Virus record (IMG/VR): IMGVR_UViG_3300028559_002705
Location: 1-24,205 of that record
Length of the DNA: 24,205 nucleotides
Source: a virus
Reading direction: 5' to 3' (one strand)
Below the pieces are notes generated by a model. The model did not search any database, was not told the origin of the DNA, and worked only from the letters and a program-made list of their open reading frames with translations. Within the stretch, counting starts at the first letter, position 1, and every line of letters starts with the position of its first letter. A program made the translations under genes and the position numbers. Shown piece after piece: positions 6,407 through 23,656 of this stretch.

Positions 6407-7972
6407 ATGGTCGAGCCCGATAACCACCTGTTCAATCAGCTACACGATCACGGCAGCCACCCCTCCCCAAGCCCCCCCCTGGCTGATAGTGAATTGCTCC
6501 CGCCGGCAATAGCCCGCAGCTGCTCATCTCTTTTGCTGTCGCTGGCCACTGGTCCAATCCCCTGGCTCCTGCATCCAACCCTGGCGGCCCTGCTGCCGCG
6601 CCTGCAACTGGTGGCCGACTGCTGGCACCTGCTGGCTGACCCCAATGGCTCAGACCGCAGGGAGCACTACCTGATCCGGGGTGAACGGGAACCGGAAAGC
6701 GCCTATCAACGTCGGTTAGAAGCAGCTCTGCCATCAGGCTTCTTCCGTGATGCCCTGCGCACCTTTGCCGGGATGCTGGCCTCCAGCCACTGGCGCGCGC
6801 TGCCGGCCTCTCTGCAGGCGGTGATCAGCGATGTGGATGGATGCGGCACCGATCTGGGGGTATTCCTAGAAGCTGCTGATCTGGCGGTGCTGCGTGACGG
6901 CGCGGCCTTGGTCGGGGTTATCCCCCCCGGCCATAGCTGGCCAAGCGAGGGCGATAGGCAGCAGGCCCTGCGCAATGGCGATCGGAGCTCCTTGCCCCGC
7001 TTGCTGCTGCTGGAGCGGAGTGACGTTCTCAACTGGCACCTGCCGGCTAACCACGCCCTGCCTGATGCGATCACCTGGCGGGAGCGGTTGCCCAATTCCC
7101 CCGTGGGAGCACCTGATGCCTCCCTGGAACCCCCAGGTGGCTTTAGCCAAGGGATTTCTCCCGATCACTGGCATCTCCGCACGGTGGCGCTGGAGCCCGG
7201 CGTGGGCATGCAACTCACCACAGAGGAGCTGGTCCTAGATCGCCAGGCCCCGTCAGGTTGGAAGCGGCAGGTGATCGACCAACGCCAGTACCTAGGCCTC
7301 ACCGCACTGCCAGCCATCTGGTACGCGAGCCACGGCTCTGCCTTTGGCAATGGGGAGCTGCCGCACCTAGGGCTGGCGCACCAGTACCTGAACCATTTCT
7401 GCAGGCAGAGCGACTACCAGGAGCTGCTGTATCGGACCGCCTTACCGGTGGGTGTACGAACCGGCGTTACTGGCCCGATGGGAACCAGCGCAGCTGGTGA
7501 GCCGGTGGTGCTGGGACCGAACACCGTGATTGATCTACCGGAGGGCGCCAGCTTTCAGTTTGTCGAGATCCAGGCTCGCTCATTAGCCGAGCACCGGGCC
7601 TGGCTCGAATCGCTAGATCAAGGCATGCGCCGTGATGCCTTGATCCCCGCTGCCGCCCAGGGTGCACCACGCACGGCGATGGAGATCTCGATGGCGGCCT
7701 CCCAGGCCTATGCCCTGCTGCAAAGCCAGGCGATACAAAAGGCCTCGATGTTCTCTTCTCTGCTGCAGCACTGGTGCGCCATCACCGGTGAACCGCTACC
7801 CGTGCAGGAGGGCCCTGCCCTGACGGTTGAGATCAGCCCGCTTGCACCAGCACCCAAGCCCCAACCAACCGTGAGCGAGATGCTGCAACTGCAGGAGCGG
7901 GGAATCATCAGCGAGCAGGCCCTGCGGCAATGGCTGGGAGATACAGCCGGTCTTTCCCCGGCAACGACATGA
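6407..7972 (+). CDS. Phage portal protein, DUF4055 type
   Basis: The portal is the ring at the unique capsid vertex through which terminase pumps DNA. This 521-residue protein matches the DUF4055 portal-like pattern: YQRRLEAALPSGFFRDALRTFAGML, then a conserved Asp-rich stretch (VISDVDGCGTDLGVFLEAA, about 139-157), a middle module (LRTVALEPG), and the segment LPHLGLAHQYLNHFCRQSDYQELLY in the second half. The C-terminal part is helical (AMEISMAASQAYALLQSQAI). It overlaps the next gene by 4 bases (ATGA). The first 40 residues are Pro/Ser-rich and do not resemble the family, so the true start may be further downstream. Position after terminase supports the call. Confidence 0.85.
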   Translation: MVEPDNHLFNQLHDHGSHPSPSPPLADSELLPPAIARSCSSLLLSLATGPIPWLLHPTLAALLPRLQLVADCWHLLADPNGSDRREHYLIRGEREPESAYQRRLEAALPSGFFRDALRTFAGMLASSHWRALPASLQAVISDVDGCGTDLGVFLEAADLAVLRDGAALVGVIPPGHSWPSEGDRQQALRNGDRSSLPRLLLLERSDVLNWHLPANHALPDAITWRERLPNSPVGAPDASLEPPGGFSQGISPDHWHLRTVALEPGVGMQLTTEELVLDRQAPSGWKRQVIDQRQYLGLTALPAIWYASHGSAFGNGELPHLGLAHQYLNHFCRQSDYQELLYRTALPVGVRTGVTGPMGTSAAGEPVVLGPNTVIDLPEGASFQFVEIQARSLAEHRAWLESLDQGMRRDALIPAAAQGAPRTAMEISMAASQAYALLQSQAIQKASMFSSLLQHWCAITGEPLPVQEGPALTVEISPLAPAPKPQPTVSEMLQLQERGIISEQALRQWLGDTAGLSPATT

Positions 7973-8502
7973 CGCAGATGCAGTCAGGACTGCAGGGGAA
8001 ACCTTTTGGTGCGCCCGCCTGGCAACCGAGCGACCACGAAGCCATTCGTCAGGCCCTGGCCCTACCGGCGACGGTGCCTTGCCTCGATGCCATCGGCCGT
8101 GCCATGGCCGATCTGGAGCGTCAGCACCCGGCCGGGGTGCTCAGCGCCCGGGCCCTACTGGATGCGGTGGCCTTAATTGACAAGCACCTGCTGGCCGGAG
8201 GTATTGAGCAGGAGCAGGCGATCGAGAGGACAAGCCGCTCCGGTCCAATCGCTGGTTCGGTGGCAGCCGCCGGTGATGCACCACTGCAAAAGGCGGATGT
8301 GATCGCCTACGACACGGCGTTGCTGCGGGAGGACCGGGAGACCGTCTATGCCAACTCTGCTTCTCCAGCCGCAGCGCTGCTAAATCAACGCCGCCGCTAC
8401 AGCGAGCAGCTGTTGTTGCTCCTGCCGGGCTTGAGCAGCTGGATGCAATTCAGCGTCGCTGCCCCAGGGATGGCTGGAGGCACGGCCTTGCTGCGGGGTT
8501 GA
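7969..8502 (+). CDS. Hypothetical phage protein in connector position
   Basis: A 177-residue protein, no recognised family. It starts at the ATG overlapping the portal stop (ATGA) and ends overlapping the next start (TGATG), so three genes are translationally coupled. It has helical segments (SDHEAIRQALALPATVPCLDAIGRAMADLE; ALLDAVALIDKHLLAGG; LLREDRETVYANSASPAAALLNQRRRYSEQLLLLLPGL) and an Ala-rich C-terminus. Genes directly behind a portal often encode head-completion or head-tail connector proteins, which is an inference from position only. An in-frame start at 7930 would add 13 residues inside the portal gene and is not preferred. Confidence 0.7.
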   Translation: MTQMQSGLQGKPFGAPAWQPSDHEAIRQALALPATVPCLDAIGRAMADLERQHPAGVLSARALLDAVALIDKHLLAGGIEQEQAIERTSRSGPIAGSVAAAGDAPLQKADVIAYDTALLREDRETVYANSASPAAALLNQRRRYSEQLLLLLPGLSSWMQFSVAAPGMAGGTALLRG

Positions 8503-9065
8503 TGATCTCCCCCCGCCAGTTCACCAGTGGCAAGCACCAGCGCAATACAACTCTGTGGGGTCCCACCCCCTTGCAGCCGTTTGCCAATGCCCGGCTGCTG
8601 CTGGGCGAAAACGCCATCCCTGGTGACACCACCTCTGCTGTGGTGGCAAGCCACGTTCTCGAGTGCTTTCTTGAGCGCTCCCGTTACATCACCGCCAGAG
8701 ACAACGGCCCTGGTGTTGATACCGGTGACTTCACCTTTCAAGGAATGATCTGCCGTGCCACCCGGCTGCCTCCCAACCCTGGTGCGATCTGGCTGAGTAG
8801 GGAGCTGCAGTGGAGTCAGAACGGCCGGCGTGTTTCCACTGCTGGCAGAACCGTTGTGGCTCCATGTGAAGGCTTGATCTGGCTTGGTGATCTAACCCTG
8901 CTCAATGCCGCAGGTGATGCGGGTGTCGATCCCTATGCCCAGTACACCTTGTTCACCGTGCTGGAGTTCGGTGCCAGCTATGGCTCAGGGGGCATCGGCG
9001 CTCTGGTGCAGCCGCTGATTGGTGAGCGGGTGTTTGGCACGCTCAAGCCGAATCGGCTGGAGTGA
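8502..9065 (+). CDS. Hypothetical phage structural protein
   Basis: A 187-residue protein of unknown family, translationally coupled to the gene before it (TGATG; a TTG one codon earlier is possible). It looks beta-rich: TTLWGPTPLQPFANARLLLGENAIPG, then repeated short strands (GDFTFQGMICRATRLPPNPGAIW; YTLFTVLEFGASYGSGG). It contains three cysteines and no signal peptide or membrane segment. As the last gene of the portal operon it may be a head-tail joining or tail-associated protein, but this is positional. It marks the 3' edge of the first phage block. The next 200 bases hold no gene, and the strand then switches to non-phage genes. Confidence 0.7.
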   Translation: MISPRQFTSGKHQRNTTLWGPTPLQPFANARLLLGENAIPGDTTSAVVASHVLECFLERSRYITARDNGPGVDTGDFTFQGMICRATRLPPNPGAIWLSRELQWSQNGRRVSTAGRTVVAPCEGLIWLGDLTLLNAAGDAGVDPYAQYTLFTVLEFGASYGSGGIGALVQPLIGERVFGTLKPNRLE

Positions 9066-9261
9066 GCGGAGGTTGAGGCTACGGCTTGATACCTCAGCCA
9101 GCAGCAGGAGCAAAAACCTAAAAAACCCTTACATCCAACTCAAACTCATGCAAACGAATGACCCAAGACTTCTTCTGCTGACTGGGGCATGCCCAAGCCC
9201 ACCAGGAGTTGAGAGCCAACTCACCGAAGATCACATTGAAGAGAATGAACACTTACGGCAC

Positions 9262-10653
9262 TCAGACGTTTGCACAGAGCGCAGCCACCATCTCATCTTC
9301 TCCTTGTCGTGACTTATTTCCCGGCCCAGCAGGCTCTTTCCACTTGCTCCACCCCGATGAAGTTGTGTATCCAGCAACCAAGAGGCGATCACAGCTCACC
9401 CCTACCGTCAAGCGCGTTGCAGAGCCCCCACATTCAGCTGCGGTAGTCCGTGTGCCATTTGAGTTCAGTCTCCACCCGGCCCAGTCGTATTTGCACTGCC
9501 CATAGGTACGCCATTGTGGCGTGTAGCTATTAGATCGAATGCGATTAAGTAGGGCTTGCTCGTTTGGACTTAACGGTTTAATTGCAGGACCACTAATAGT
9601 GCTGCTACCTCGCCAGCGCACCACCAATCCGCTGCTGCACTCCTGCTGGGAAAGGGCGCCGACACTGCAGGCCTGCTGATGAGCTGACACGCTGGGATTC
9701 TCGTCAGACAACGAACGGATCCGCGCTCGCTCCACCGGACTCACCACCCCATCATGCACCAGTTCATCTAGAGAGGCATCAAAACGGGCGGGTGGTCTGG
9801 ACGGCAGCTCTGGACGCAGTGGCTCAGAAAGTGGCTGGTGAGGAGCAATGCGAGTGCGCTCCGAAGACGCCTGTCGAAGGCGGACCTGGCTTCCCACCAC
9901 AAGCCGTGCAGTTTCCATACCAGGATTGAGACGTAGCAGCTCTTGCAGGGTTAAGCCGTAGTGCTGAGCAATCTTTACGACCGTGTCGCCGAAATGGACA
10001 GTAGTTACAAGCTCACTACTGAGTTTCAGACCGGAGATATTAGTTGAATAGAAAGAAAATGCACTAACTCCAGCTAAAGTAGTTTTTGCTTTATTGACTT
10101 TGCTTGCTTGGACCGGGAACAGGCTGGCTACAGCGGCAATTGCGGCGTTCATTTCTTCTTCGCCTGCAAAAGCTTTATCGATCTGAGTTAGCGCGCCACT
10201 CTTATCCACAAGATAAAGCGCAACCTGATCCTGTACCACTGGTGCAACGGATTCATTTTGTTTGTTGCGCTTGGAGCCCCAAAGATCGAGAAGAGCTTGC
10301 TCGTATGCTTTTGTGTTAATTTGATATGCGCCAATGGCTTCTGCCTGGGCTATGCCCTGCGCAAGATAGCCAGAATCATTGCCTTCATCCCAAGTCAATA
10401 CCAAATATCGAATTAGGTTTAGGAATGCTCTTCGTTCGGCAGTTATTGCGTATACTCTTGAGGGTTGACTCGAACGCCTTGGGTCTATTTTCGCCTTCGC
10501 TTCCCGTGTAGAATTGGTCGGTACTTGTCTGGCTCCCAGGCGATCAAGAGCTTCTAATTGGCAGCGCAGTGATCCCACTGGTGAACATGTCAAGGTTTCG
10601 GCTTGAGCCGATGATGTGATGAGTAAAATGGATGTAATGAGTGAGTAATCCAT
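9262..10653 (-). CDS. Exported LysM-domain protein with four-cysteine C-terminal domain
   Basis: A 463-residue protein. Residues 1-18 resemble a signal peptide ending SAQA, though without the usual basic start. Residues 60-125 (SRVYAITAERRAFLNLIRYLVLTWDEG, GAYQINTKAYEQALLDLWG) recall a glycosidase- or lysozyme-like helical region, weakly. A LysM peptidoglycan-binding domain spans 217-259 (HFGDTVVKIAQHYGLTLQELLRLNPG). The C-terminus has four spaced cysteines and many aromatic residues. The LysM segment is nearly the same at DNA level as that in the gene at 11492-12436, so the two are paralogues. It lies on the strand opposite to the phage genes and is probably a host cell-wall protein rather than a phage lysin. 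Confidence 0.75.
   Translation of the reverse strand: MDYSLITSILLITSSAQAETLTCSPVGSLRCQLEALDRLGARQVPTNSTREAKAKIDPRRSSQPSRVYAITAERRAFLNLIRYLVLTWDEGNDSGYLAQGIAQAEAIGAYQINTKAYEQALLDLWGSKRNKQNESVAPVVQDQVALYLVDKSGALTQIDKAFAGEEEMNAAIAAVASLFPVQASKVNKAKTTLAGVSAFSFYSTNISGLKLSSELVTTVHFGDTVVKIAQHYGLTLQELLRLNPGMETARLVVGSQVRLRQASSERTRIAPHQPLSEPLRPELPSRPPARFDASLDELVHDGVVSPVERARIRSLSDENPSVSAHQQACSVGALSQQECSSGLVVRWRGSSTISGPAIKPLSPNEQALLNRIRSNSYTPQWRTYGQCKYDWAGWRLNSNGTRTTAAECGGSATRLTVGVSCDRLLVAGYTTSSGWSKWKEPAGPGNKSRQGEDEMVAALCANV
9869..10000 (-). repeat. LysM-encoding repeat, copy 1
   Basis: This 132-base segment aligns without gaps to 11886-12017, including a 25-base identical run (GCTGAGCAATC...GTGTC on the plus strand). 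It encodes the LysM domain of the 463-residue protein. Confidence 0.7.
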
Positions 10654-10780
10654 TCTACAAAAATCTAGTTCATTTAAAATAGCTAAATCTTGCCGTGGTG
10701 GCTATTGCTGCCAGGAGGCACCAGTCATTACCTGAGCAACAATTATATCTAGCAGCTTAGCCCAAGGAACCATGACCACA

Positions 10781-10847
10781 AGGCTGCCAGCTGTTCCAAG
10801 ACTGTCGGGTCACGCTAGTGCTCAAGGAAGGAGAACCCGGCACTTGA
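10781..10847 (+). pseudogene. Decayed 3' end of a copy of the small ORF at 12435-12656
   Basis: The frame ending at TGA 10845-10847 reads RVTLVLKEGEPGT, close to the end of the intact 73-residue ORF (RFTVVLKEGEPGS). Similarity continues upstream with a one-codon gap (shared AGGCTGCCA at DNA level) until an in-frame stop and then fades. Each copy lies just outside the 5' end of a reverse-strand LysM gene, so a two-gene cassette was probably duplicated. Confidence 0.55.
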
Positions 10848-10909
10848 CCCGCCAGGCAATCACCGCAGGGCTTTGCCAGCAGAGCACCTAGCAGGCATAG
10901 ACGTATCGG

Positions 10910-11113
10910 TCACAGCTTCTCACCCAGAAGGCGCCGCAGATGTCGATCTGGTAGACCCGCCGAGGCAATCAATCCCAGCGGACCAGTCAGTATTCCTATC
11001 CCGAGCCAGACCCAATACGCATGGCCTTTCTGGTGAGCGACCATGCCGGTCAGCATGCCGCATACCAAAGGTAGAAACAACAAAAGAAAGGTGGTTAGCA
11101 ATTCTGTTTGCAT
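10910..11113 (-). CDS. Small two-helix membrane protein
   Basis: A 67-residue protein with two predicted membrane helices: residues 5-24 (LLTTFLLLFLPLVCGMLTGM) and 33-53 (YWVWLGIGILTGPLGLIASA). They are joined by a short polar loop (VAHQKGHA) and followed by a basic tail. The GTP-free motif W-x-W-x-G-x-x-x-G-x-x-GPLGLI is common in small bacterial inner-membrane proteins of unknown function. A plus-strand ORF overlaps the same bases but has no features of a real protein. It sits between two LysM genes on the same strand. Function unknown. Confidence 0.65.
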   Translation of the reverse strand: MQTELLTTFLLLFLPLVCGMLTGMVAHQKGHAYWVWLGIGILTGPLGLIASAGLPDRHLRRLLGEKL

Positions 11114-11491
11114 GAGAAGGGCAAGTGCTTTTGCTTGTCAGTCCTAGCGCCTAGGCGTGCAGCTGCAAGCAGAGTTACGCTATTGTGACTATGCCGACCG
11201 CAATCGTCGTGACGAAGCTGGATTTAGCAGACCGTTGGTGAAGACTGCTAAGACTGGCCCACCATGATAGCCGCTCGCATCAAGGACACCACAGTGGACA
11301 AGGGCCGTGACTGAGGCTAATGCAAGTGCTGCAGAGGCAATAGATATGAGTGATCACTGCAGTCTATCCCTATGGCCCCCGACTTAAGATCGACTAGCAG
11401 AGGGTGTGACGAAAGAGTTAAACAAGGAACACGAGAAGTGACTTTCCGATGCCATCCAACAGCATTGGAAGAGTGGCATTTGAATACTTGA
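11114..11491. other. Intergenic stretch without a supportable gene
   Basis: About 380 bases between the small membrane protein gene and the 3' end of the second LysM gene. A reverse-strand ORF at 11317-11631 overlaps the LysM gene out of frame and has no family features. No promoter or hairpin-plus-T-run terminator stood out. Confidence 0.5.
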
Positions 11492-12436
11492 CTACCTGCA
11501 TCCCAAAGCTTTAAAAGATTGGCCTTTGCTCCAGGACCATGAAACATAATCAAGCCTGCATCGGCGTGGTCCAAGATTATCAGAATAACTAACATATCCA
11601 CCATCGCATCGATAGCTTGGAGGCATGGCATTTGAATTGTCGGCCGGATATGAGTAACAACTGTATAGGTCGTAGAAATATGTTCTGAGCGAGGGATCCT
11701 CCCAGATTCTTGGCTTACTGTTTAAAAAACGTGCAAATGCAGAGGGGTTTCTCTTGAATGGCCCAACTAATCCAATTGTACTTACTCCACTACCGGTACT
11801 TCGATATTCAGGCAGTTCGGGCCAGCTGATACCGCCACTAGTGGTTGGCTTGAGCCCCAGCACCATGCGGGTGCGGCCGGATGAAGCCTGCGCAAGCCGT
11901 ACTTGGGAACCGACGACAAGGCGTGCGGTTTCGAGGCCAGGATTGAGACGCAGCAGTTCCTGCAGGGTCAATCCATAGCGCTGAGCAATCTTTACGACCG
12001 TGTCCCCAAAGCGCACAACAGCACGTTCCTCCACAGGAGCAAAGGACTGAAGAGGAGGTGTGCGACGCAGATCGCTGGTATCGATCGCTGCAAGCTGCTT
12101 TATCTGCCTCAATTGCTGACTGGGAACAACAAGCCAATCATCTGGACGAAAATGGTGGTCTTCGTTGACGTCGTTGAGCTTGGCGATGAGATCTTTATCA
12201 AGTCTGAGGCTGCTGGATAGCTCTTCAACGCTGATGGGGTGACGCACCTTGACCCATATCTTGTCGATGCTGGGGGTAGGTAGGGCAGCGATCAAAGAAT
12301 CAACAGAAGCCTTCTCGATATCGGCGGGCTCAAGAGCTACAACCACGGCTGGCAGCTCAACACCCAGCAGGGGTGGCGGGATATCGATCATCATTGCGAG
12401 CAAAGCCGACCTGGCAAGAAGTGCAGCGGCTTGCAT
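11492..12436 (-). CDS. LysM-domain protein, paralogue of the 9262-10653 product
   Basis: A 314-residue protein. The N-terminus is hydrophobic and atypical for a signal peptide (ARSALLAMMIDIPPPLLGVELPAVVVA). Residues 61-105 look like a diverged LysM unit (VRHPISVEELSSSLRLDKDLIAKLN, RPDDWLVVP). Residues 139-181 are a clear LysM domain, almost the same as in the other paralogue. The C-terminal 65 residues carry four cysteines with spacing 16, 15 and 19 and are rich in Tyr and Ser; the paralogue ends in a similar four-cysteine region. LysM domains bind peptidoglycan or related glycans, so an envelope role is likely. The start codon at 12436 overlaps the divergent ATG at 12435 within CATG, so one of the two starts may be wrong. 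Confidence 0.75.
   Translation of the reverse strand: MQAAALLARSALLAMMIDIPPPLLGVELPAVVVALEPADIEKASVDSLIAALPTPSIDKIWVKVRHPISVEELSSSLRLDKDLIAKLNDVNEDHHFRPDDWLVVPSQQLRQIKQLAAIDTSDLRRTPPLQSFAPVEERAVVRFGDTVVKIAQRYGLTLQELLRLNPGLETARLVVGSQVRLAQASSGRTRMVLGLKPTTSGGISWPELPEYRSTGSGVSTIGLVGPFKRNPSAFARFLNSKPRIWEDPSLRTYFYDLYSCYSYPADNSNAMPPSYRCDGGYVSYSDNLGPRRCRLDYVSWSWSKGQSFKALGCR
11886..12017 (-). repeat. LysM-encoding repeat, copy 2
   Basis: Ungapped 132-base counterpart of 9869-10000, encoding the second LysM domain of the 314-residue paralogue. Differences are spread along it and many fall at third codon positions, which suggests both copies are under protein-level selection. Confidence 0.7.
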
Positions 12437-12656
12437 GGTTGATCAATATGCAACCCTGTTCCTGCAGCATGGCAGCTCAAGTACCGCTCTGACGGCATTG
12501 GTCCCGCTATTCGACGTAATCGCTGACCTGCCCGAGGGCATCGCGGTGACGCCGGACTTCGCTGCTGATAAGGCCGAGGCCCTCCAGGCTGCCAAAGAAC
12601 TGCTCCCAGGACATCGGTTCACTGTCGTGCTCAAGGAAGGCGAGCCGGGTAGCTAG
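12435..12656 (+). CDS. Small acidic hypothetical protein
   Basis: A 73-residue soluble protein with no recognised family. It has helical and mixed segments (STALTALVPLFDVIADLP; DFAADKAEALQAAKELLPGHRF) and ends with a beta-like TVVLKEGEPGS. The reading frame is open further upstream to 12249, but that part is antisense to the LysM gene, so the ATG at 12435 is chosen. That ATG overlaps the start of the divergent LysM gene (CATG), leaving no room for a separate promoter or ribosome site. The real start may be inside the ORF or on an antisense transcript. Homology of its last third to the relic at 10781-10847 supports it having once been, or being, a real gene. Confidence 0.45.
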   Translation: MVDQYATLFLQHGSSSTALTALVPLFDVIADLPEGIAVTPDFAADKAEALQAAKELLPGHRFTVVLKEGEPGS

Positions 12657-12735
12657 CGCCCATATGGGTCATCGGCGGGCACTGTCCAGAAACGTGAGTC
12701 GACCTCGCTCCCGAAGTTAAGTCGCGAATAAACGC

Positions 12736-12764
12736 TTGGGACCTCTGAGTCGGACCAGTATATG
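12736..12764 (+). promoter_or_regulatory. Sigma-70-type promoter of the three-gene membrane operon
   Basis: TTGGGA (12736-12741) and TATATG (12759-12764) are separated by exactly 17 bases. Each matches 4 of 6 consensus positions. The lipoprotein ATG at 12795 lies 30 bases downstream of the -10 box. Confidence 0.5.
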
Positions 12765-12794
12765 GTGTAAATTGTGAGGGGCTTATATTTTGTC

Positions 12795-13763
12795 ATGAAT
12801 CAAAAAAGCAAAAATCTATCCGCGTTAGTCGCTATTTTAGTTGCAAGCGCAACCTCAGGATGTAGTACGGACATAAGCCAATTCGCAGTCGGCGAGGTCA
12901 CAACCTGGAAATGCGATAAAGAACCCAGCTCCAAGAAGGAATATGTTTTTAAGCCGTATGAATATATTATCCAAGCACCGGCCGACACTATCGGGATTGG
13001 CGGCTCAGATGAATCCAGGAGCTCAACCATACTCAACACCAAAGACCCTCTCCAAAAACTTCCGTCAGGATGGGTACTCAGTGACAGCTATTCCCATGAG
13101 GTTACCGATGAAGGGGGCTTTGCTATTAGCGGGACTGCCGACAATGGTGAAGGCGGACGATTAAAGCAGTCCCTCGTTTTGGATGGAAACACTGGCAAAA
13201 TGAATATTAAGAATGGCAGCGAAACAACAATACTTCAATGCAAACGGATTGGGGACTGGAGAAAGATTATGAGCTCTGTCATGCAAGGTCCTGGAAATTC
13301 ATATTTGGACAAAAGGCTAAGCAGTATTCCGTTTCTTCGCAAAAAGGCAGGAGATGTCGAATTCTCGTCGGAATTGGCAAAGGAGGCAAACATAAATAAT
13401 GATCATGCCTCTGTATATGGGCTGCTATCACCATTGCCATCATCTGAACTAACTACGCAGGACTCCGATCTTGTTGAGACCGCAAAGAAAAGATTGATTG
13501 AAAATGATACGAGTTCTTATGCCGTCTGGGAGTGGAACAATAGTTGGCAGGGGAGTTATTATACGGACGAGGAGAAATCTAGTCGGTGCAGCAATCTTGC
13601 GGGAAACCCTTACCAGGAGGGATACAAGATTATAAGTTCTACTCCGCAAGAAAGGATTGGTGGCACAGGACTAACGTGTCATGGAACGCTTCACTTATTA
13701 AAAAAGGAGGGAGCACTGCAAGCTGTTAAGCCCGCAACTCTGCTGCCTGTTTATTATGACTAA
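12795..13763 (+). CDS. Predicted lipoprotein of unknown function
   Basis: A 322-residue protein. MNQKSKN is followed by a hydrophobic core and the lipobox ATSGC with Cys23, so it is probably lipidated and anchored to a membrane. An in-frame GTG or TTG earlier (from 12774) would add seven residues; the ATG at 12795 fits the lipoprotein signal better. The mature part has a cysteine pair around a beta-rich region (TTWKCDKEP ... TTILQCKRIGDW) and further Cys residues in the last quarter (SSRCSN, LTCHG). No enzyme motif is visible. Its end overlaps the next start by 8 bases, so it heads a three-gene operon. The DNA is clearly AT-richer than the phage genes on either side, which suggests separate ancestry. 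Confidence 0.7.
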   Translation: MNQKSKNLSALVAILVASATSGCSTDISQFAVGEVTTWKCDKEPSSKKEYVFKPYEYIIQAPADTIGIGGSDESRSSTILNTKDPLQKLPSGWVLSDSYSHEVTDEGGFAISGTADNGEGGRLKQSLVLDGNTGKMNIKNGSETTILQCKRIGDWRKIMSSVMQGPGNSYLDKRLSSIPFLRKKAGDVEFSSELAKEANINNDHASVYGLLSPLPSSELTTQDSDLVETAKKRLIENDTSSYAVWEWNNSWQGSYYTDEEKSSRCSNLAGNPYQEGYKIISSTPQERIGGTGLTCHGTLHLLKKEGALQAVKPATLLPVYYD

Positions 13764-14397
13764 ACTGTTTTCTGCACGCATTCGGTCCTTAGAATTCATC
13801 AAGAGGCAAAATTTATCAACTCTTTTTCTCTTTTGCTCGGTAGCCTTTCTTAGCATTTCAAGCACAATCTGTTTGGCAAGACTCGCTGAGAGGGAAAAAG
13901 CAGAAAAAATATTGGCTCAGCAACTTACAGTAATTGTATTTGACCTTTCTAGAGACCGACGCAATATTGCCATCGCGAAAGAGAAAGAAGAATCTATCCA
14001 GAGACAGTTCCGAGAGGAGGCAGAGCGAAATGCTATGTATTTCAATGATGTGCCCTTGGTAATATCAACTTTGGATGGCAAGGGCAGGCTTGTTGGATTC
14101 AGTAGGCTTGGAGAATCAAATGGCACAGCTCAGTATTCATTTCTTATTAAGAATGGCAACGACGAAATTACAGTAACTGGCACGATTACTAATCATTCTG
14201 GGAAATTTATTTATAGCGACGATTACAGCACGCCCATGGAAGCTAGGACAAGCGGAGAGGTGGTGCATGGGAAGCCCAAAAGCACAAGATTGAGATTAGA
14301 TTTTGTTGTGACAAGCACTCCTTCTGATAAATACAGAGTAGGTGACACTTTCTTTGCAACATTTGTTTTGCCGGGTGTCAGTGGAGAAGCGACATGA
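13756..14397 (+). CDS. Single-pass membrane protein with extracytoplasmic beta-rich domain
   Basis: A 213-residue protein. It has a basic N-terminus, a membrane helix at about residues 21-42 (STLFLFCSVAFLSISSTICLA), a charged helical linker (REKAEKILAQQ; AKEKEESIQRQFREEAERN), and then a beta-rich domain (residues 95-205). The pattern GTAQYSFLIKNGNDEITVTGTITNHSGKFIYSD loosely recalls the Coa1/Tim21-like fold found in membrane-anchored assembly proteins, but this is a weak by-eye match. It overlaps the lipoprotein gene by 8 bases and the following gene by 4 (ATGA), so it is translationally coupled to both. The three products probably act together at the membrane. AT-rich composition as in its operon partners. 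Confidence 0.7.
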   Translation: MTKLFSARIRSLEFIKRQNLSTLFLFCSVAFLSISSTICLARLAEREKAEKILAQQLTVIVFDLSRDRRNIAIAKEKEESIQRQFREEAERNAMYFNDVPLVISTLDGKGRLVGFSRLGESNGTAQYSFLIKNGNDEITVTGTITNHSGKFIYSDDYSTPMEARTSGEVVHGKPKSTRLRLDFVVTSTPSDKYRVGDTFFATFVLPGVSGEAT

Positions 14398-14729
14398 AAA
14401 AAATATCGGTGCTTAAATACGCTTTGTCTGGCATGTTAATAGGTCTATCGGCTAGCGCATTGGTTATTACCTCTAGGCTAGACCTGCCACAATGTAATAA
14501 TGATAAGGTTATCAGCTCTGTCATTGCGCTCTGGAAGCTTAATGCGCTGAGATCCGATCAGCCCGTGGAAGATGGAAGATTGAAGGAGCCGCTTGAACTG
14601 CCTCTAAAAATTGCTAGTGGCAGGGCGTGTACTGCCGAGATATACGTGTCAGGGAAGGTGAATGGAAGCATTGGCTATACTGTAATGCGGCCTCTCAAGG
14701 GCGCAGCCAATATGGTTACTCTTGACTAA
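14394..14729 (+). CDS. Small membrane-anchored orphan protein
   Basis: A 111-residue protein. It starts at the ATG overlapping the previous stop (ATGA). Residues 1-27 (MKKISVLKYALSGMLIGLSASALVITS) form a signal anchor or signal peptide. The rest is short and mixed, with two cysteines (LPQCNND and GRACTAE) that could form a disulphide outside the cytoplasm. No family is recognised. It is the third gene of the operon that begins at 12795. The sequence after its stop holds a 10-base palindrome AAACTAGTTT but no clear terminator. Confidence 0.65.
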   Translation: MKKISVLKYALSGMLIGLSASALVITSRLDLPQCNNDKVISSVIALWKLNALRSDQPVEDGRLKEPLELPLKIASGRACTAEIYVSGKVNGSIGYTVMRPLKGAANMVTLD

Positions 14730-15264
14730 TTCTAAAACTAGTTTACGACTAAGTAATTTTGAGGTCAATACTCCTTCTTCGGAAGTGGCTTTAAAATTTT
14801 CGCTCAGGTTGTTGTGGGCAGCCTGTCGAGGCGTTGCTTCAGGCTATGTGGGGTTCGGTGGCGCGCAGACCAGTCAGCATTACGCTGTAATCCCTGAAAT
14901 CCATGCCGCATTTGCGGTGTTTTCTCAGACGGCAGCACCCCGCCAGCCCTTACTGACCAGTGCCAGTGTCCGCTGCTGTACTGCCTTCAGGCCATTTGCC
15001 CCTAGATGAACTTTTGGTGCCTGCTGCTGGCTCTTGAGGCCCTCCCAGTGGCCGGCTGCCTCCACCTCATCGTCAGGCTGACGCTTCGATCGAGGTTTGC
15101 AAGCCATCCTCCCGTCTGGATCGGCCTTTTAGCTGGATATCGCCGGCGCATCGCTATTGAGAATCGACTCTCTGTCCAGACCTGATGGCTACGGCCGTGA
15201 ATTGGAACAGCCACAACGCTTGCGGCTATGAGCTCTAGCTAGCTGGCGAATCTGTTGTTGACGT
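14730..15264. other. Intergenic stretch without a supportable gene
   Basis: About 530 bases that change from AT-rich to GC-rich. ORFs at 14722-15009 (plus), 14925-15107 and 15002-15214 (minus) overlap each other and have no family features or convincing start signals. The stretch leads into the terminase relic at 15265, so it may hold further unrecognisable phage debris. Confidence 0.5.
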
Positions 15265-15360
15265 AGGTGCTCAACCTGCCCGCCATTGCTGAACATCCTT
15301 TCTAGCAACTGCACTTTTCAGACACCTTCAGCATTGAGCCTGATTGGTGGCATCCAGCTC
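15265..15360 (+). pseudogene. Relic of a second large terminase gene
   Basis: An ungapped alignment to 3448-3540 inside the intact large terminase begins with a 16-base identity (AGGTGCTCAACCTGCC). Read in that frame it gives VLNLPAIAEHPF, a stop (TAG), then QLHFSDTFSIEPDWWHP. The intact protein has VLNLPATAEPPE, then QQLQFPATCTLEPDWRQP at residues 287-315. Conserved positions include VLNLPA, A-E-x-P, QL-x-F and EPDW. Neither the Walker motifs nor the nuclease motifs were found nearby, so this is a fragment. Its divergence from the intact copy, mostly at third positions and with an in-frame stop, points to an old remnant of a related element rather than a recent duplication. Confidence 0.7.
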
Positions 15361-15491
15361 AGTTGCACTAGCGATTGGTCTGGAACTGAAATTTCTCATC
15401 TTCACGGAGGGCCAAGACTTCTATGGCAGCGGTATCGCCATGTAGACGACTCGCACTGTGGAGATCTACTCGAACAGTTCAGCTGATGCCT

Positions 15492-15533
15492 CGGCAACAG
15501 GGAGTGGCAGCGCCGCGATGGGCTGCCGCTCCC
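15492..15533 (+). promoter_or_regulatory. Leader hairpin before the scaffold gene, with a degenerate CGGCAATAGC-type motif
   Basis: CGGCAACAGG (15492-15501) matches CGGCAATAGC at 8 of 10 positions. A strong stem overlaps its end: GGGAG-T-GGCAGC (15500-15511) pairs with GCTGCC-G-CTCCC (15522-15533), 12 pairs including one T-G. The scaffold ATG lies 20 bases downstream. Confidence 0.35.
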
Positions 15534-15553
15534 ACTGACAGCCGAGACGGGTC

Positions 15554-16417
15554 ATGGCCACAACCGCAACTCACAACAGCTCCAGGACAACTGACGAGAG
15601 CAGCGAGCTGCATGAGCAGCACCATCAGGAGACTGCTGAACTAGAGAGCAACATCACTGCTGACTATCCACCCGCTGAGCGCCAAGCCGGCATCGCTCTG
15701 GCTGATGCAGACGAGCCCAGCACAAGCGAGATCCAGCCCAGCAGCGGCCTCGGCGATGCCCTCAAGGCCGAGCGCAGGCGCAGCAACAACCTTGAAAAAG
15801 AGCTGCGGGGTCTACGGCAGCAGCTGACCCGCTTCTCGGAGATCAATCCCGAGGAATACGCCCGCCTGCAGCAGGCCGAACGCCAGAAGCAACTGCTCGA
15901 GCAGCAGGTGGATCTGCGCGAACGTCAGATGGAAGAGGCTTCCGCCCGCAAGGTGGCAGCCGTTGCAGCGGAACGCGACGCGGCCCATGAGCGCGTACAG
16001 GAGTTGCGCAAGGAGCGGCTGCTGGAGCGCGCTTTTTCAGAAGCAGAAGGCCGCACCGGCGGCGATGGGCGCGGCACCTTTTTTCAGGTGTTCAAGGGCC
16101 AGCTGGGCGAGAGCTTTCGGCTCACCACCAGCAAGGACAGCGTCGATGTGCTGGAACCGCTGGACAGTCAGGGCCAGCCGTTGCTGGGCGATGACGGGCG
16201 GCCACTGAGCACCGCTGACTTCCTTGATCAGCTGCGCATCCACCCCGTCTACGGCTTCCTGTTTCAGCAGCGCGGTGCGATGACCGGCAGCCCAGGGCTG
16301 GGTGTAGCACCTGCGGCAGCTGGTGGCTTTGGCGAGGTGCTCAACCCCCAGGCGATGAGTGCCAGTGAGCTCTACCGGGCTGGCTTTGTCACCAACGGCC
16401 GCAGCCCACGTCGCTGA
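15554..16417 (+). CDS. Phage scaffold-like protein
   Basis: A 287-residue, highly charged protein. After a disordered acidic N-terminus (1-65), residues 68-162 form a long coiled coil (GDALKAERRRSNNLEKELRGLRQQL ... LLERAF) that strongly resembles capsid scaffold proteins of the GP20/phage minor structural type. The C-terminal part (175-287) is globular and ends with NPQAMSASELYRAGF and a basic tail, as often seen where scaffolds contact the capsid protein. Scaffolds guide assembly of the major capsid protein and then leave the particle. The capsid protein in this window lacks an N-terminal delta-type domain, which fits a separate scaffold. The ATG at 15554 follows the leader hairpin. Confidence 0.75.
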   Translation: MATTATHNSSRTTDESSELHEQHHQETAELESNITADYPPAERQAGIALADADEPSTSEIQPSSGLGDALKAERRRSNNLEKELRGLRQQLTRFSEINPEEYARLQQAERQKQLLEQQVDLRERQMEEASARKVAAVAAERDAAHERVQELRKERLLERAFSEAEGRTGGDGRGTFFQVFKGQLGESFRLTTSKDSVDVLEPLDSQGQPLLGDDGRPLSTADFLDQLRIHPVYGFLFQQRGAMTGSPGLGVAPAAAGGFGEVLNPQAMSASELYRAGFVTNGRSPRR

Positions 16418-17895: not shown

Positions 17896-17981
17896 GGCAG
17901 TAGGGCAATCCTTTGCTGTTGCCGCCCCGCCACTTCACGTCTTTCAGCTCAGACTGTGGAGCAGGTCGGATAGGTCGGTTG

Positions 17982-18386
17982 ATGTGCCTCGCTCCTGAGA
18001 GCCACGAGCTCTACTGCCAGCTGACGCGCAATCTCGACGACGAGAAGCTGCTGGCGCTCGATGCCCACTACAGGGAGAAGTGTGGCAACTCTGTGGAATG
18101 GGAGCTGCACGGCATCGTGATGAATGAGATCCACCAGCGCCGCAAGTTCAGGCGACAGAAACTGGAGCGCTCTCTCTGGCTCGCAAGCCGCCGCGGACGG
18201 CTTACAGAAGCGATCAAGCGCTGGCTGATCAGACGCCGGCTCTGGAGTTCGGCCACTTGCGAGCGCCAACACCCGCGCTCTTTGATCGGCCGGGTGCTGG
18301 CGCTGGTCTTCGAGAGCTACCAGAGCAGCAAACGACTAGCGATCGAAACACTTCCAGGCCGGCAGACCCCGCTGGAGCAACTCTGA
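17982..18386 (+). CDS. Basic hypothetical protein between lysis cassette and capsid gene
   Basis: A 134-residue helical, Arg-rich protein of unknown family. Segments such as LTRNLDDEKLLALDAHYREKCGNSVEWELHGIVMNEIHQRRKFRRQKLERSLWLASRRGR suggest a nucleic-acid-binding or regulatory role, unproven. The frame is open from 17913, but the first 23 residues lie in the divergent gap before the peptidase gene and look non-coding, so the ATG at 17982 is chosen. It precedes the capsid gene by 83 bases, which contain the CGGCAATAGC leader. Confidence 0.55.
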   Translation: MCLAPESHELYCQLTRNLDDEKLLALDAHYREKCGNSVEWELHGIVMNEIHQRRKFRRQKLERSLWLASRRGRLTEAIKRWLIRRRLWSSATCERQHPRSLIGRVLALVFESYQSSKRLAIETLPGRQTPLEQL

Positions 18387-18469: not shown

Positions 18470-19405
18470 ATGGGCCTCACCTTGATCGAGGCAGCCAAAT
18501 ACGAGAACCGGCTCGAGCACTTAGCTGTGCTCAAGACCTTCTCAGAAGGCGAATTGCTCGCCCGGCTGCCGTTCATGAACATCGCCGGCAGTGGCCTGTT
18601 TTATTCCGCCGAGCAGGAACTGCCCTCAGTGGGCTTCCGTGCTGTCAACGAGGGCTACACCCAGAGCTATGGCGTGGTGGATCAGCGCGCAGAGGCGGTG
18701 CACCTATTTGGTGGTGACGTGGATGTGGATCGCTCGATCGTTGACCTGATGGGCCCTGAGGCCCGCGCCAGTCAGATCGAGATGAAGGTGCGCTCCATGC
18801 GTCTGACGCTGGAGGCGACGGTGATCAACGGCGACACAAGCGCCAACCCGCGGGCCTTTGACGGGCTGAGCAAGCGCCTGCAGCCCGGTGATGCAATGGC
18901 GATCGACAACAGTGCTGGCGCAGGTGTTGCCGGGGCCCCGCTTGATTTTGATCGCCTCGATGAGTTGATCGATTCGGTGAATGCCTACGGCGGCAGCAAG
19001 GTGCTGGTGATGAGCAAGGCGATGCGCCGCCAGCTCAATGCCCTGGCCCGCTCCACCATGGGCGGCGGGGTGTATCAGACCAGCACCAACTCCTACGGGA
19101 TGACGGTGCACCGCTACCAGGACTGCGACATCTTGACGGTGGACCGCGATGCCCAGGGCGTCGAGGTGATGGGTTACGACGAGGCGGGCGGCACCAGCTC
19201 GATCTACTGCTGCACCTTTGGCGATCAGGGCGTGACTGGTCTGCAGGGTCCCTTTCAGGGGCGGTATGGGATTTCGGTGCGGGATCTGGGCGAGGTGCCC
19301 GATGCCCCGGTGTTCCGCACCCGCGTCGATTGGTACGTGGGCTTTGCCGTGCTGCATCCGCGTGCGAGCGGCCGGCTGTTCAACATCACACCCGCTGGGG
19401 CCTGA
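18470..19405 (+). CDS. Major capsid protein, HK97-type fold
   Basis: A 311-residue shell protein. The pattern is that of HK97-fold capsid proteins paired with a separate scaffold. The N-terminal arm (LTLIEAAKYENRLEHLAVLKTFSEGELLARLPF) leads to a strand-rich E-loop region (GLFYSAEQELPSVGFRAVNEGYTQSYGVV). The spine helix follows (DRSIVDLMGPEARASQIEMKVRSMRLTLEATVINGD), and then the A domain with RLDELIDSVNAYGGSKVLVMSKAMRRQL. The C-terminal domain ends in RVDWYVGFAVLHPRASGRLFNI. There is no N-terminal delta domain and no protease gene in the window. It starts 7 bases after a hairpin that might affect translation. The next gene has a good ribosome site (GAGGAGA at about 19404) just past its stop. 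Confidence 0.9.
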   Translation: MGLTLIEAAKYENRLEHLAVLKTFSEGELLARLPFMNIAGSGLFYSAEQELPSVGFRAVNEGYTQSYGVVDQRAEAVHLFGGDVDVDRSIVDLMGPEARASQIEMKVRSMRLTLEATVINGDTSANPRAFDGLSKRLQPGDAMAIDNSAGAGVAGAPLDFDRLDELIDSVNAYGGSKVLVMSKAMRRQLNALARSTMGGGVYQTSTNSYGMTVHRYQDCDILTVDRDAQGVEVMGYDEAGGTSSIYCCTFGDQGVTGLQGPFQGRYGISVRDLGEVPDAPVFRTRVDWYVGFAVLHPRASGRLFNITPAGA

Positions 19406-19859: not shown

Positions 19860-20501
19860 ATGTCGACTCTTGTTCGCCATGACCTCACAGACCCCGCCAT
19901 TCCCGAGGGGATGGTGCGGATCGTGCAGGGGGGCAGCTACCGATTCATCTGGCCGGTGCATCTGGGCGGCTGGCAGAGCCTGGGCTGGCAGTTGCAACCG
20001 GCAGCAGGTCTGACAGCGCCGGAGCCCAGGCTGCCGGAGCCGGAGCTGGCCCCGTCAGCTCAACCGCCGTCAGAGGTCGTTGAGGACTTGGCACCTGTCG
20101 CACCTGTCGGTGCTGACCTGCAGAGCGCACCTCTCGGTTCCGATTCACTGAGCGCACCTCTCGGTTCCGATTCACTGAGCGCACCTCTCGGTTCCGATTC
20201 ACTGAGCGCACCTCTCGGTTCCGATTCACTGAGCGCACCTCTCGGTTCCGATTCACTGAGCGCACCTCTCGGTGCGACCTTCCAGGCGATGACCAAGGCC
20301 CAGATCATTGAGCACTGCTCCAGCGTTTATGGGGTGGAGCTCGATGGCAGCCAGACCAAGGCGGAGCTGGTGGAGCAAGCCATCGCATTGGAAACCCAAA
20401 ACGACTCAATCGCTGCTGCTGCATCAGGGCCTGAACCGCTGCTCCAGCCGGAGAGCGATGAGCCCCTGCTTAATGAGCTGCTGGATGACCCGCTGATCTG
20501 A
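19860..20501 (+). CDS. Protein with 27-bp tandem repeat and C-terminal HeH/LEM-like domain
   Basis: A 213-residue protein. The N-terminal 60 residues are globular (IPEGMVRIVQGGSYRFIWPVHLGGWQS). A Pro-rich linker leads to five perfect copies of the nonapeptide SAPLGSDSL and a sixth partial copy (about residues 89-138). Then comes MTKAQIIEHCSSVYGVELDGSQTKAELVEQAIAL (about 143-176), which has the helix-extended-loop-helix look of HeH/LEM or SAP-type domains often found in phage head or tail-associated proteins. The tail is acidic. It starts 5 bases after the preceding stop. The repeat makes a flexible spacer whose length is likely to vary by slippage. Function unknown; a structural connector is plausible. 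Confidence 0.65.
   Translation: MSTLVRHDLTDPAIPEGMVRIVQGGSYRFIWPVHLGGWQSLGWQLQPAAGLTAPEPRLPEPELAPSAQPPSEVVEDLAPVAPVGADLQSAPLGSDSLSAPLGSDSLSAPLGSDSLSAPLGSDSLSAPLGSDSLSAPLGATFQAMTKAQIIEHCSSVYGVELDGSQTKAELVEQAIALETQNDSIAAAASGPEPLLQPESDEPLLNELLDDPLI
20125..20274 (+). repeat. Perfect 27-bp tandem repeat (5 full copies plus partial)
   Basis: The unit encodes SAPLGSDSL (agc gca cct ctc ggt tcc gat tca ctg). Five copies at 20125-20259 look base-for-base the same, followed by a 15-base partial copy. The unit length is a multiple of three and it lacks stops in several frames on both strands, so copy number can change without breaking the gene. Confidence 0.9.
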
Positions 20502-20514
20502 GGAGGAGCACCGC

Positions 20515-21309
20515 ATGTCCCTGAGCTTGCGCACCCCGGCGATCAGCAGCAGCGGTATCAGCGCGCAGCTGATTCGTCTGCTGCCGCCTGTGGGTTGCCC
20601 GGGTCATCCGATCTGGGTGCCGCCCAATGAGGTGCAGCGCTGGGAGCAGCTCGGGTTTGGTCGTGCGCCGATCCCAGCAGCTGATCTGGAACTGAGCTGG
20701 CAGCCAGCTGGACAGGAGTCGGGCGGCCTGATTCCGATCGAGCTGCTGCTCAACCCACGCCACACGCCCCCCAATGCGGTGACGGTGGACTGGGGTGATG
20801 GGGTGACGGAGACCCTGCCCTGGCCGGTTGGCGGCGATGGCAACGGCCGGCTGCGGCATAGCTACACCAGCCGTAGGGATTACACGATCAAGGCCGAACT
20901 CAGCGGCAATGGCGTAACGGCTTCTGTGCTGGTGAGCCTGGCGGGCTGCCCGATCTGGCAGCCCGAGGTCACGCCACCCCCCGATGGCAGTGGTGGTGGC
21001 ACAGCACCTGGCTCTGTGCTGCCCTTGATTCCTGGTGCTGGCCTAAGTGGCGCTGCCTACGACGGCAGCACAACCCAACAGTGGAGCCTGACGCGATGGA
21101 GTGGTGGAACCAGTGCTGGTGGTGTGCCAGCCAGCGATGGCTCGAGCTCCTTATTCCTATGCGCTGATGGCAGCTGGGCCATGCCGCCAGTCGGCGGTAC
21201 GCGCTGGTTTAACGGCGCTGGACCACCGCCGCTGACGATCAGTGGTGCAAACCCCGGTGACTACTACCTGGACAGCCTCAGCGGCAACTTTTACGTGCTG
21301 GAGGGTTGA
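20515..21309 (+). CDS. Tail-fibre-like protein with PKD-like domain
   Basis: A 264-residue protein preceded by a strong ribosome site (AGGAGG, about 20502-20507). Residues 74-143 show a PKD/Ig-like beta-sandwich signature ([16 protein letters not shown] ... [20 protein letters not shown]). A Gly/Ser/Pro linker follows. Residues 228-264 form a short module ([35 protein letters not shown]) that returns at the end of the 23084-23653 protein, so it is probably a fibre joint or cap. The mix of beta domain and repeatable tip module fits a virion surface or fibre-attachment protein. There is no signal peptide. Confidence 0.7.
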
Positions 21310-21310
21310 T

Positions 21311-21344
21311 CGGCAATAGCGAGTAGGTCGCACCAAGGGGTGCG
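21311..21344 (+). promoter_or_regulatory. CGGCAATAGC motif plus hairpin before the first collagen-like gene
   Basis: CGGCAATAGC (21311-21320) directly follows the stop of the preceding gene. The perfect stem CGCACC-AAGG-GGTGCG spans 21329-21344. The ATG at 21368 is 47 bases after the 10-mer. TTTACG lies 17 bases upstream of GCAATA, so a -35/-10 reading is possible but weak. Confidence 0.45.
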
Positions 21345-21367
21345 CGCGGCAACGTTGCAACTGATTG

Positions 21368-21901
21368 ATGCCCTGGAGCCAGAGCTTGAACCTTGTTGGT
21401 CCAACAGGTCCTGCAGGTGCTGCTGGAGCAAGCGGAGAACCAGGTGCTGCTGGTCCGGCTGGAGAAAATGGTCCTGCAGGTGAAATAGGCCCTGCAGGGC
21501 CGCAGGGTCCTGCTGGACCAGCGGGCCCGGCTGGTGAAAGTGGCCCTGCAGGTGTTGCCGGCCTAGCTGGTGATGTGGGTCCTACTGGCATAGATGGTCC
21601 ACCTGGAGAGCCTGGCCCTGCTGGCCTTGATGGACCACCAGGCGTCGCTGGACCCCCAGGCGAACCGGGTCTTACTGGAGAAGCAGGACCCGCTGGCGCT
21701 GCCTGTAATACCGAGTTCCGCGTTGATGCAGGTGTGCCGCAGTACTACCTAGCTGCAGAAGGTCGCTGGGGAAACCTTGCTGTTTTGGCAGTGGCTTCTG
21801 CGCCCGCTAATGCCATGGCTGAACTGGATCCAAACCTTGAGGCCCGCTCCCTTGATTCAGCCATAAGCCAAGACGACGCCACCTCTGGCGCGGGCCAATG
21901 A
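21368..21901 (+). CDS. Collagen-like fibre protein 1
   Basis: A 177-residue protein. The N-terminal tag [12 protein letters not shown] is followed by 34 uninterrupted Gly-X-Y triplets (residues 11-112) and a C-terminal domain that opens with [20 protein letters not shown]. Such collagen-like stretches in phage proteins form trimeric rod-shaped fibres. The ATG is chosen over the TTG one codon earlier. It overlaps the next gene by 4 bases (ATGA), so the two collagen proteins are translationally coupled and may be made in a fixed ratio. The C-terminal module is shared with the next protein; the N-terminal tag is shared with all three later fibres. Confidence 0.85.
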
Positions 21902-22974
21902 GCTGGCTAGAAGCGCTCAACCTTGCCGGGCCAGCTGGTTCTGCTGGTGCACAAGGAGCGGCAGGAGCACCAGGCCCTGCTGGACCACCTGGGGCAGCAG
22001 GGGCAGTTGGCGAGCCTGGTGCTGAGGGCCCTGCTGGCCCGCAAGGAGATCAAGGGCCCCTTGGCCCTCAAGGTCCCCAGGGCCCTCAAGGAGCGCCCGG
22101 AGTGCAAGGCAGCCAAGGCGCTCAAGGTCCCCAGGGACCGCAAGGCCCTGCAGGAAATCCCGGTCCAGCAGGAGCGCAAGGCGTCATGGGGCCTACTGGT
22201 GCAGCGGGGCAGCAAGGCTCTGCAGCTACAAGTGATTTCCAGGTGCTTGCTGGCGTTCCCCATGCCTATATGGCAAATCAGGGGACCTGGGTGCCGCTTG
22301 GCGTTGAGCCGCTTGCGCCTGTTGTTCCAGAGGTTGGCGCACCGATTGGCGGTGGCTACTTCGCTGGGTTGATTAGCCATACGGCTGATGGCAACCCCAC
22401 CCATTACCTAATCGTCGCGCCGCGTGATGCGGGTGCTACCGGCGGCTCTAATACCGGCATGCCCGAGGTTTACCCGCAGGCTTATAACCCGACCTACAGG
22501 GACTACGGGCCAAGCGGTGGTTGCGGCAGCAGGCATGACGGCTGGGCGAACACCGAGTGGATGATCCAAAATGGTGTTCACCCTGCTGCCCAGTGGTGTG
22601 CGGCACTAAATATCAACGGCTACGACGACTGGTACATGCCAGCGCACTACGAGCTGGAGATTGCCTACTTCCATCTCAAGCCAACAGCTACGCCGAACGT
22701 AGCTGATCCAGCCTATGGAGACGGGATCAACCCATATGCAGTGCCAAGGCGTGACTATCTGTTCCCCCCATACGTGCCAGCTCAGTGCTTAAACCCTGCC
22801 TTTCAGTGGGGCGGGGCGGAAGCCTTTATTCCATTAATCCACTGGACATCATCAGAGAGGGATACGCGCGATTGCTATGTGTTGAGTATGGATAGTGGTT
22901 TGTTTTCTTGGATGCCCAAGATATTTATTTCACCTGTGCGCGCCATGCGCAAGATCCCCTACGGGTCGCTCTAG
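21898..22974 (+). CDS. Collagen-like fibre protein 2 with DUF1566/Lcl-type tip
   Basis: A 358-residue protein. The tag [12 protein letters not shown] leads into 33 Gly-X-Y triplets (residues 11-109), then a short module [20 protein letters not shown] shared with fibre 1. From about residue 150 follows a DUF1566/Lcl_C-type domain, marked by [37 protein letters not shown] and the closing SPVRAMRKI. This domain forms the adhesive end of the Legionella collagen-like adhesin and some phage receptor-binding proteins, so it is the best candidate here for the receptor-binding tip. It contains several cysteines. The last 110 bases are locally AT-richer than the rest of the gene. Confidence 0.88.
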
Positions 22975-23043
22975 TCCAGTCAGCTTTGCTGAACGCAGTT
23001 GTGGCTTGCTGTTAGCCACCGGCTAGCGGCTAGCGGTGCAATA

Positions 23044-23082
23044 CGGCAATAGCTGCTGTTGACACACCGGGCTGCTGGCCCG
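23044..23082 (+). promoter_or_regulatory. CGGCAATAGC motif plus hairpin before the third collagen-like gene
   Basis: CGGCAATAGC (23044-23053) lies in the 109-base gap after fibre 2. The stem CGGGC-TGCTG-GCCCG (23068-23082) ends just before the ATG at 23084. A second GCAATA lies immediately upstream of the 10-mer, and GGCTAGC-type repeats precede it. Confidence 0.45.
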
Positions 23083-23083
23083 C

Positions 23084-23653
23084 ATGACCATGGCTTGGGT
23101 AGCAGGCGGCTCTCTTAAGGGTCCACAGGGTGAGCAAGGCATTCAGGGCGCCCAAGGGGTGCAAGGCCTTGCTGGCGCTGATGGCGCCCAAGGCGTCCAG
23201 GGACCACAAGGAGAAGCCGGCATCCAGGGTCCGATTGGTCCTGATGGTGTTCAAGGCCAGCAGGGCATCCAGGGTGCTGCGGGGTTGGGCATCACCTTTA
23301 AGGGCCAGGTAGCGACAGAAACGGAGCTGCCAGCTGGTGCAGCCCAGGGCGATGCCTACATCGTTCAGGCCGATGACTCCTTCCAGGTGTGGGATGCGGC
23401 CAGCAGCAGCTGGGTGAATGGTGGCTCGATTCAAGGACCGCAGGGAATTGAGGGCCCAGCTGGCGTTGCTGGTGTTCAAGGAGAAATAGGCCCTGCTGGC
23501 GCTCAAGGCGTAGAAGGACCAGCAGGCGTCCAGGGCATGCGCGGTACGGGCTGGTTCAACGGCAGCGGCGCTCCTGCAGAAGATATCCCTGGTTCGATCC
23601 CTGGTGATCTGTATTTAGATAACGCCACGGGCGATGTGTACACCCTGAGCTGA
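23084..23653 (+). CDS. Collagen-like fibre protein 3, two rods with a central domain
   Basis: A 189-residue protein starting [14 protein letters not shown] (an alternative start is the second Met). It has about 18 Gly-X-Y triplets, then a globular insert ([35 protein letters not shown] ... SSSWVNGG) of a type often seen in phage fibre proteins. About 12 more triplets follow, then the terminal module [34 protein letters not shown]. The X-Y positions are rich in Gln (GVQ, GPQ, GIQ), unlike the Pro/Ala-rich rod of fibre 1. It probably makes a jointed fibre. The terminal module matches the end of the protein at 20515-21309. Confidence 0.85.
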
Positions 23654-23656
23654 GCG

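Follow-up and report, generated by a model that had tools for sequence, protein, structure and literature searches.

A dead fragment of a second large terminase ahead of the scaffold gene of a picocyanobacterial phage-like element

The virus record analysed here (24,205 bases; the whole of this stretch is referred to as the window) is a metagenome contig, a fragment of a phage-like element, and it carries ahead of its head scaffold gene a genuine dead, non-coding piece of a second, different large terminase (TerL) gene. This fossil probably comes from the TerL of a second element of the same family, near the lineage found in genome G197, and would be a relic of recombination between two related elements in the slot that separates gene o8499 from the scaffold gene. 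The kind of event is already known, being ordinary prophage mosaicism and decay, and the present instance is unusually well recorded: short dead fragments seldom reveal both their source lineage and the event that produced them, and here the fossil, a toxin stump and a change of nearest relative converge on one slot.

Results

Organization of the element

The window follows a module order shared by dozens of viral contigs and genomes of picocyanobacteria: probable small terminase (TerS), TerL, sigma factor, DUF4055 portal, the two small genes o7930 and o8499, scaffold, a C39-type peptidase on the opposite strand, major capsid protein and collagen-like fibres. The features referred to in the text are the following.

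2040-2591, plus strand: probable small terminase (TerS), named from its position beside TerL and without a PHROG match
2588-4378, plus strand: intact TerL (large terminase), the copy that the element uses (Terminase_6C; phrog_38, E 3.6e-80), with an alternative upstream ATG start at 2297
6407-7972, plus strand: portal protein (DUF4055)
8499-9065, plus strand: gene o8499, the last gene left of the junction
9066-15488, no strand: insertion between o8499 and the hairpin and scaffold, from comparison with compact relatives
14730-15263, no strand: stretch left of the terminase fossil, with one weak genome match and no family match
15264-15362, plus strand: TerL fossil fragment, cut at both ends, with one in-frame TAG, identified by TerL homology
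15365-15485, plus strand: remains of a PIN_2 (VapC-like) toxin gene, reduced to the last 38 codons at its 3' end, with an internal TAG (Pfam PF10130)
15489-15556, plus strand: conserved structured hairpin whose right end is at the start codon of the scaffold gene
15554-16417, plus strand: head scaffold gene, the first gene right of the junction
18470-19405, plus strand: major capsid protein
21151-24205, plus strand: collagen-like fibre region, a further mosaic tract, G197-like at 90-99% nucleotide identity

The element is one of freshwater cyanobacteria, and Cyanobium/Synechococcus genomes often contain several copies of it. The family is strikingly multi-copy: the 4-Mb genome of Cyanobium sp. 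Cruz-8D1 (G006) has TerL matches on about 10 contigs, and G197 holds two diverged copies. Recombination partners are therefore available within one cell. No integrase, replication or tail genes were seen in partial scans of this fragment contig and its relatives, which covered the window proteins tested and parts of loci L183, L068 and L060. The nearest TerL sequences from isolated phages are those of the Synechococcus siphoviruses S-CBS2 and S-CRES1-3 and of cyanophage PSS2, at only 31-34% amino acid identity, and none of 50,697 phage records reaches 60%. Two further observations concern other parts of the window: a putative HigBA-like toxin-antitoxin pair, recognized by eye in the translations, lies on the minus strand between the sigma factor and portal genes (5712-6322), and o19860 contains 27-bp tandem units of 100% identity at 20099-20279.

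The terminase fossil

The fossil is 99 bases long and aligns without gaps to TerL residues 287-318 when numbering begins at 2588 (384-416 from the ATG at 2297). Its gapless BLOSUM62 score against the element's own TerL is 88, the next best score in the six frames of 14730-15553 being 41. Among 300 dinucleotide-preserving shuffles the scores had a mean of 37.6 and a maximum of 53, corresponding to a Gumbel P of 3.8e-8 for the region and of 1.1e-6 when scaled to the whole window. A search of the record against itself gave the fossil-TerL match an E of 1.3e-5, and at the DNA level the fossil is 85% identical over 95 bp to the intact TerL of G197 (E 3e-24). The initial annotation had described a gapless, stop-containing, TerL-like stretch at 15265-15360 and had offered a shuffled-sequence comparison as the way to refute it; the stretch withstands that comparison, its coordinates are correct to within a few bases, and its match runs to residue 318 rather than 315. 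The significant family alignment, the broken and incomplete frame and an origin distinct from that of the resident TerL together identify it as a TerL pseudogene.

A TerL profile that included distant terminases missed the fossil, and a profile built from the close family detected it. When the close-family profile was run over 135 sequences (134 loci and the window), with terminases truncated by a contig end or an insertion counted as terminase genes, the fossil and a fragment in locus L107 were the only strong TerL-like matches outside terminase genes. A role as a functional site, for example a packaging signal, was set aside, since at no other locus does the fragment stand apart from a terminase gene.

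Lineage of the fossil

The nearest relative of the fossil is the intact TerL in genome G197 (locus L185), with which it shares 81 of 96 nucleotides and 23 of 32 amino acids, compared with 66 of 96 nucleotides (69%) for the window's own TerL. At discordant sites the fossil sides with the G197 TerL 18 times and with its own TerL three times (sign P 7e-4), and, the fossil being short, its lineage assignment rests on about 20 informative sites. The residues PAIAEHP and DT.S are common to the fossil and G197, whereas PAT.EPPEQQL, found in the window's TerL and in L058, is absent from the fossil. The differences from the own TerL are distributed 6/7/17 over the three codon positions, indicating that this divergence mostly arose under selection; those from the G197 TerL are distributed 5/3/7, and divergence from that lineage would thus have been mostly neutral, as in decay. 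These comparisons indicate that the fossil is the terminase of a second lineage, near G197, and did not arise by decay of a copy of the window's own TerL.

The toxin fossil and the slot

Terminase homology stops at about 15362 and toxin homology begins at 15364-15367, a clean fusion. The placement of the terminase piece beside the scaffold gene, as first annotated, therefore stands with the amendment that a toxin fossil intervenes between the two. The toxin stump matches Pfam PF10130 with an E of 8e-5, above the gathering score, and the toxin of L006 and L094 with an E of 2.7e-7, and it is 84% identical in nucleotides to L137. Both the PIN_2 profile match and the matching genomic slot mark it as a PIN-domain toxin pseudogene. 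It corresponds to the 3' end of the toxin of VapBC cassettes (PIN_2, PF10130); unlike an intact cassette, the window keeps 38 codons with a stop, and no antitoxin gene accompanying the stump was found.

The slot that holds both fossils measures 6.4 kb in the window (9066-15488), and contains two LysM-domain genes, three unnamed genes, the stretch without a family match and then the two fossils. The distance from o8499 to the conserved part of the scaffold gene is 6.7 kb in the window versus 0.2-2.6 kb in most relatives, and in L005, L007 and L009 the hairpin alone separates the two genes. Intact vapBC cassettes occupy the slot in L006, L094, L090 and L112; in the G197 element it holds a putative nucleotidyltransferase-HEPN pair, read by eye from the translation, and in L087 host-type genes. 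For the stretch at 14730-15263 no convincing identity was obtained among protein families, the proteins of 21 genomes or the DNA of 421 genomes in all, the weak match being one of 73% between 15123-15242 and an intergenic stretch of genome G125. A search of the window's gap for fossils of TerS, portal, o7930 and o8499 revealed none, and an identical TerL-toxin junction was recovered from no other genome searched.

The slot ends on the right at the hairpin, a 65-nt spacer that is the sole separator of o8499 and scaffold in the most compact relatives and that precedes the scaffold gene in nearly all relatives searched. Pairing in its inner stem reaches 99.7%, with compensatory changes, and Rfam contains no match to it; the hairpin may act as a cis-regulatory RNA for the head operon. 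A truncated second copy lies right after o8499 in L006 (16021-16083), L094 (9016-9078) and L112 (4745-4810), so that direct repeats flank the vapBC cassette in L006 and L094. Such a copy was sought left of the window's insertion and not found. A scan of viral contigs with the exact hairpin pattern gave no matches, the pattern being probably too strict for the variation in length.

Mosaic flanks

The genes on the two sides of the slot have different nearest relatives. The o8499 protein is 94% identical to that of G197 and 80% to that of L058, while the scaffold protein is 94% identical to that of L058 and 76% to that of G197. TerS is 98% identical in amino acids to L058 and L021 and about 50% to other relatives, and the major capsid protein is 98% identical to L058 and 91% to G197. 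In a nearest-relative profile computed in 200-bp nucleotide windows along the record, G197 is closest at 8551-9065, within o8499 (92% vs 75-88%), and L058 from 15551 to about 16750, over the scaffold gene (89-96% vs 67-88%). G197 is again closest at 17951-18350 (96-98%), L058 over most of the capsid gene, and G197 once more from 21151 (90-99%). Compared with L058 and G197, the resident TerL is a patchwork as well, and the place of the crossover is therefore not fixed. The slot shows two properties expected of a recombination junction: the nearest relative changes across it, and partners are able to meet in one cell. Several lineage switches are thus present in the window, and the slot is the only one of them to retain debris.

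Discussion

The G197-type fossil, together with the different nearest relatives of the genes on either side of the slot, gives good support to the initial proposal that two related elements recombined here. A G197-like element would have been joined to an L058-like element by homologous recombination, plausibly within TerL given that the resident copy is itself mixed, and this would have placed a spare TerL copy upstream of an L058-like scaffold gene. A deletion could then have fused the spare copy to a toxin cassette ahead of the scaffold, after which the terminase and toxin stumps would have decayed, leaving a terminase fragment without present function. This order and route, integration followed by deletion, are proposed from the end product, and the intermediate steps are unobserved since the TerL-toxin junction was found in no other genome. 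The accompanying suggestion, that the head module was rebuilt from a second prophage, likewise gains evidence, but the data do not tell it apart from a simple history of integration and deletion.

The fragment could also have arrived within cargo captured elsewhere, for example from a degraded element in the host chromosome, in which case the adjacent lineage switch would be coincidental. The contents of the slot are indeed varied, from the vapBC of L006, L094, L090 and L112 to the host-type genes of L087, and the sequence just left of the fossil resembles the G125 intergenic stretch. We nevertheless hold this to be unlikely, as the toxin fossil on the right is the slot's usual resident and not foreign, and the neighbouring o8499 is G197-like, the same as the fossil.

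Quite unlikely, too, is a chimeric assembly joined at the conserved hairpin, by which the fossil side and the scaffold would come from different element copies in the sample. The toxin fossil lies directly left of the hairpin, like the intact versions in L006 and L094, comparable switches of nearest relative occur away from the hairpin (e.g. 17951-18350 and from 21151 on), and the fossil itself is real regardless of how the join arose. In favour of a false join are the near identity of the hairpin among copies of a multi-copy element, the contig L059 that begins exactly at the scaffold ATG, and the several contigs that end inside the scaffold gene.

That the fragment arose by local duplication of the element's own TerL and then decayed, without any second element, seems very improbable, even though it lies in the same element and on the same strand, its match to the own TerL is still significant, and L063 indicates that part of the module may become duplicated in tandem. 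The nearest-relative test disfavours a duplicate, with 85% nucleotide identity to the G197 TerL versus 69% to the own copy, discordant sites at 18:3 and the PAIAEHP and DT.S residues of G197 in place of the PAT.EPPEQQL of the window and L058; so does the codon-position test, in which the third-position excess relative to the own TerL implies a long divergence as a working gene. Chance similarity, for which it could be said that the homology amounts to just 99 bases in a single region, is rejected by shuffling (P 4e-8) as well as by the DNA-level match to G197 (E 3e-24), and its probability is negligible.

Recombination between two related elements, the reading that we prefer, has a described counterpart in poly-lysogenic bacteria and their 'grounded' prophages, where phages recombine with prophage remnants (reviewed in PMC6379469). 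As in such prophage mosaicism and decay, related elements residing together recombine, shed genes and leave pieces behind; what differs here is that both nearest lineages, the slot and a toxin fossil fused to the terminase piece can be named within one picocyanobacterial element family. In the literature on cyanobacterial prophages and gene transfer agents, we found the element described nowhere beyond phiSynAce1 of Synechococcus sp. SynAce01, which the available portion of its report places at 65,524-73,790 and calls replication-defective (PMC6337551). This position overlaps the SynAce01 copy of the present element, whose TerL is at 70,049-71,635; the same portion of the report treats a single prophage locus and mentions no element family, slot or fossils (PMC6337551).

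Debris is also present at two other loci, both in metagenome-assembled genomes. In L087 a portal fragment (81% nucleotide identity to other portals) lies left of the cargo cassette and scaffold, with the locus's own portal-o8499 genes upstream, and in L107 a TerL fragment (about 92% to L096) is fused to slot DNA ahead of the scaffold. We tentatively raise the possibility, which is still a doubtful one, that DNA is exchanged repeatedly between o8499 and the scaffold gene, with toxin-antitoxin cassettes and other cargo coming and going beside the hairpin and stumps recording the exchanges. The element would then be a multi-copy and possibly domesticated cluster of capsid and packaging genes in freshwater picocyanobacteria. 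The slot is a usable marker of module swapping in this widespread, multi-copy phage-like element, and short terminase matches in such contigs are to be read as recombination debris and not as second working packaging genes.

Other loci are unusual in further respects. In L063 (9733-14757) the block from o7930 to the C39 peptidase occurs twice in tandem, apparently identically, either by duplication or as an assembly artefact. The 6.9-kb contig L022 starts with two outward-facing TerL copies (1-2495) and may be chimeric. Finally, the TerL of L088 (2108-4750), from Cyanobium sp. Cruz-8D1, is interrupted at its Walker A motif by a long in-frame insertion (PPRHGK / ACSHDTP ... VTHN / SQLVS), which, from its sequence, reads like an intein.
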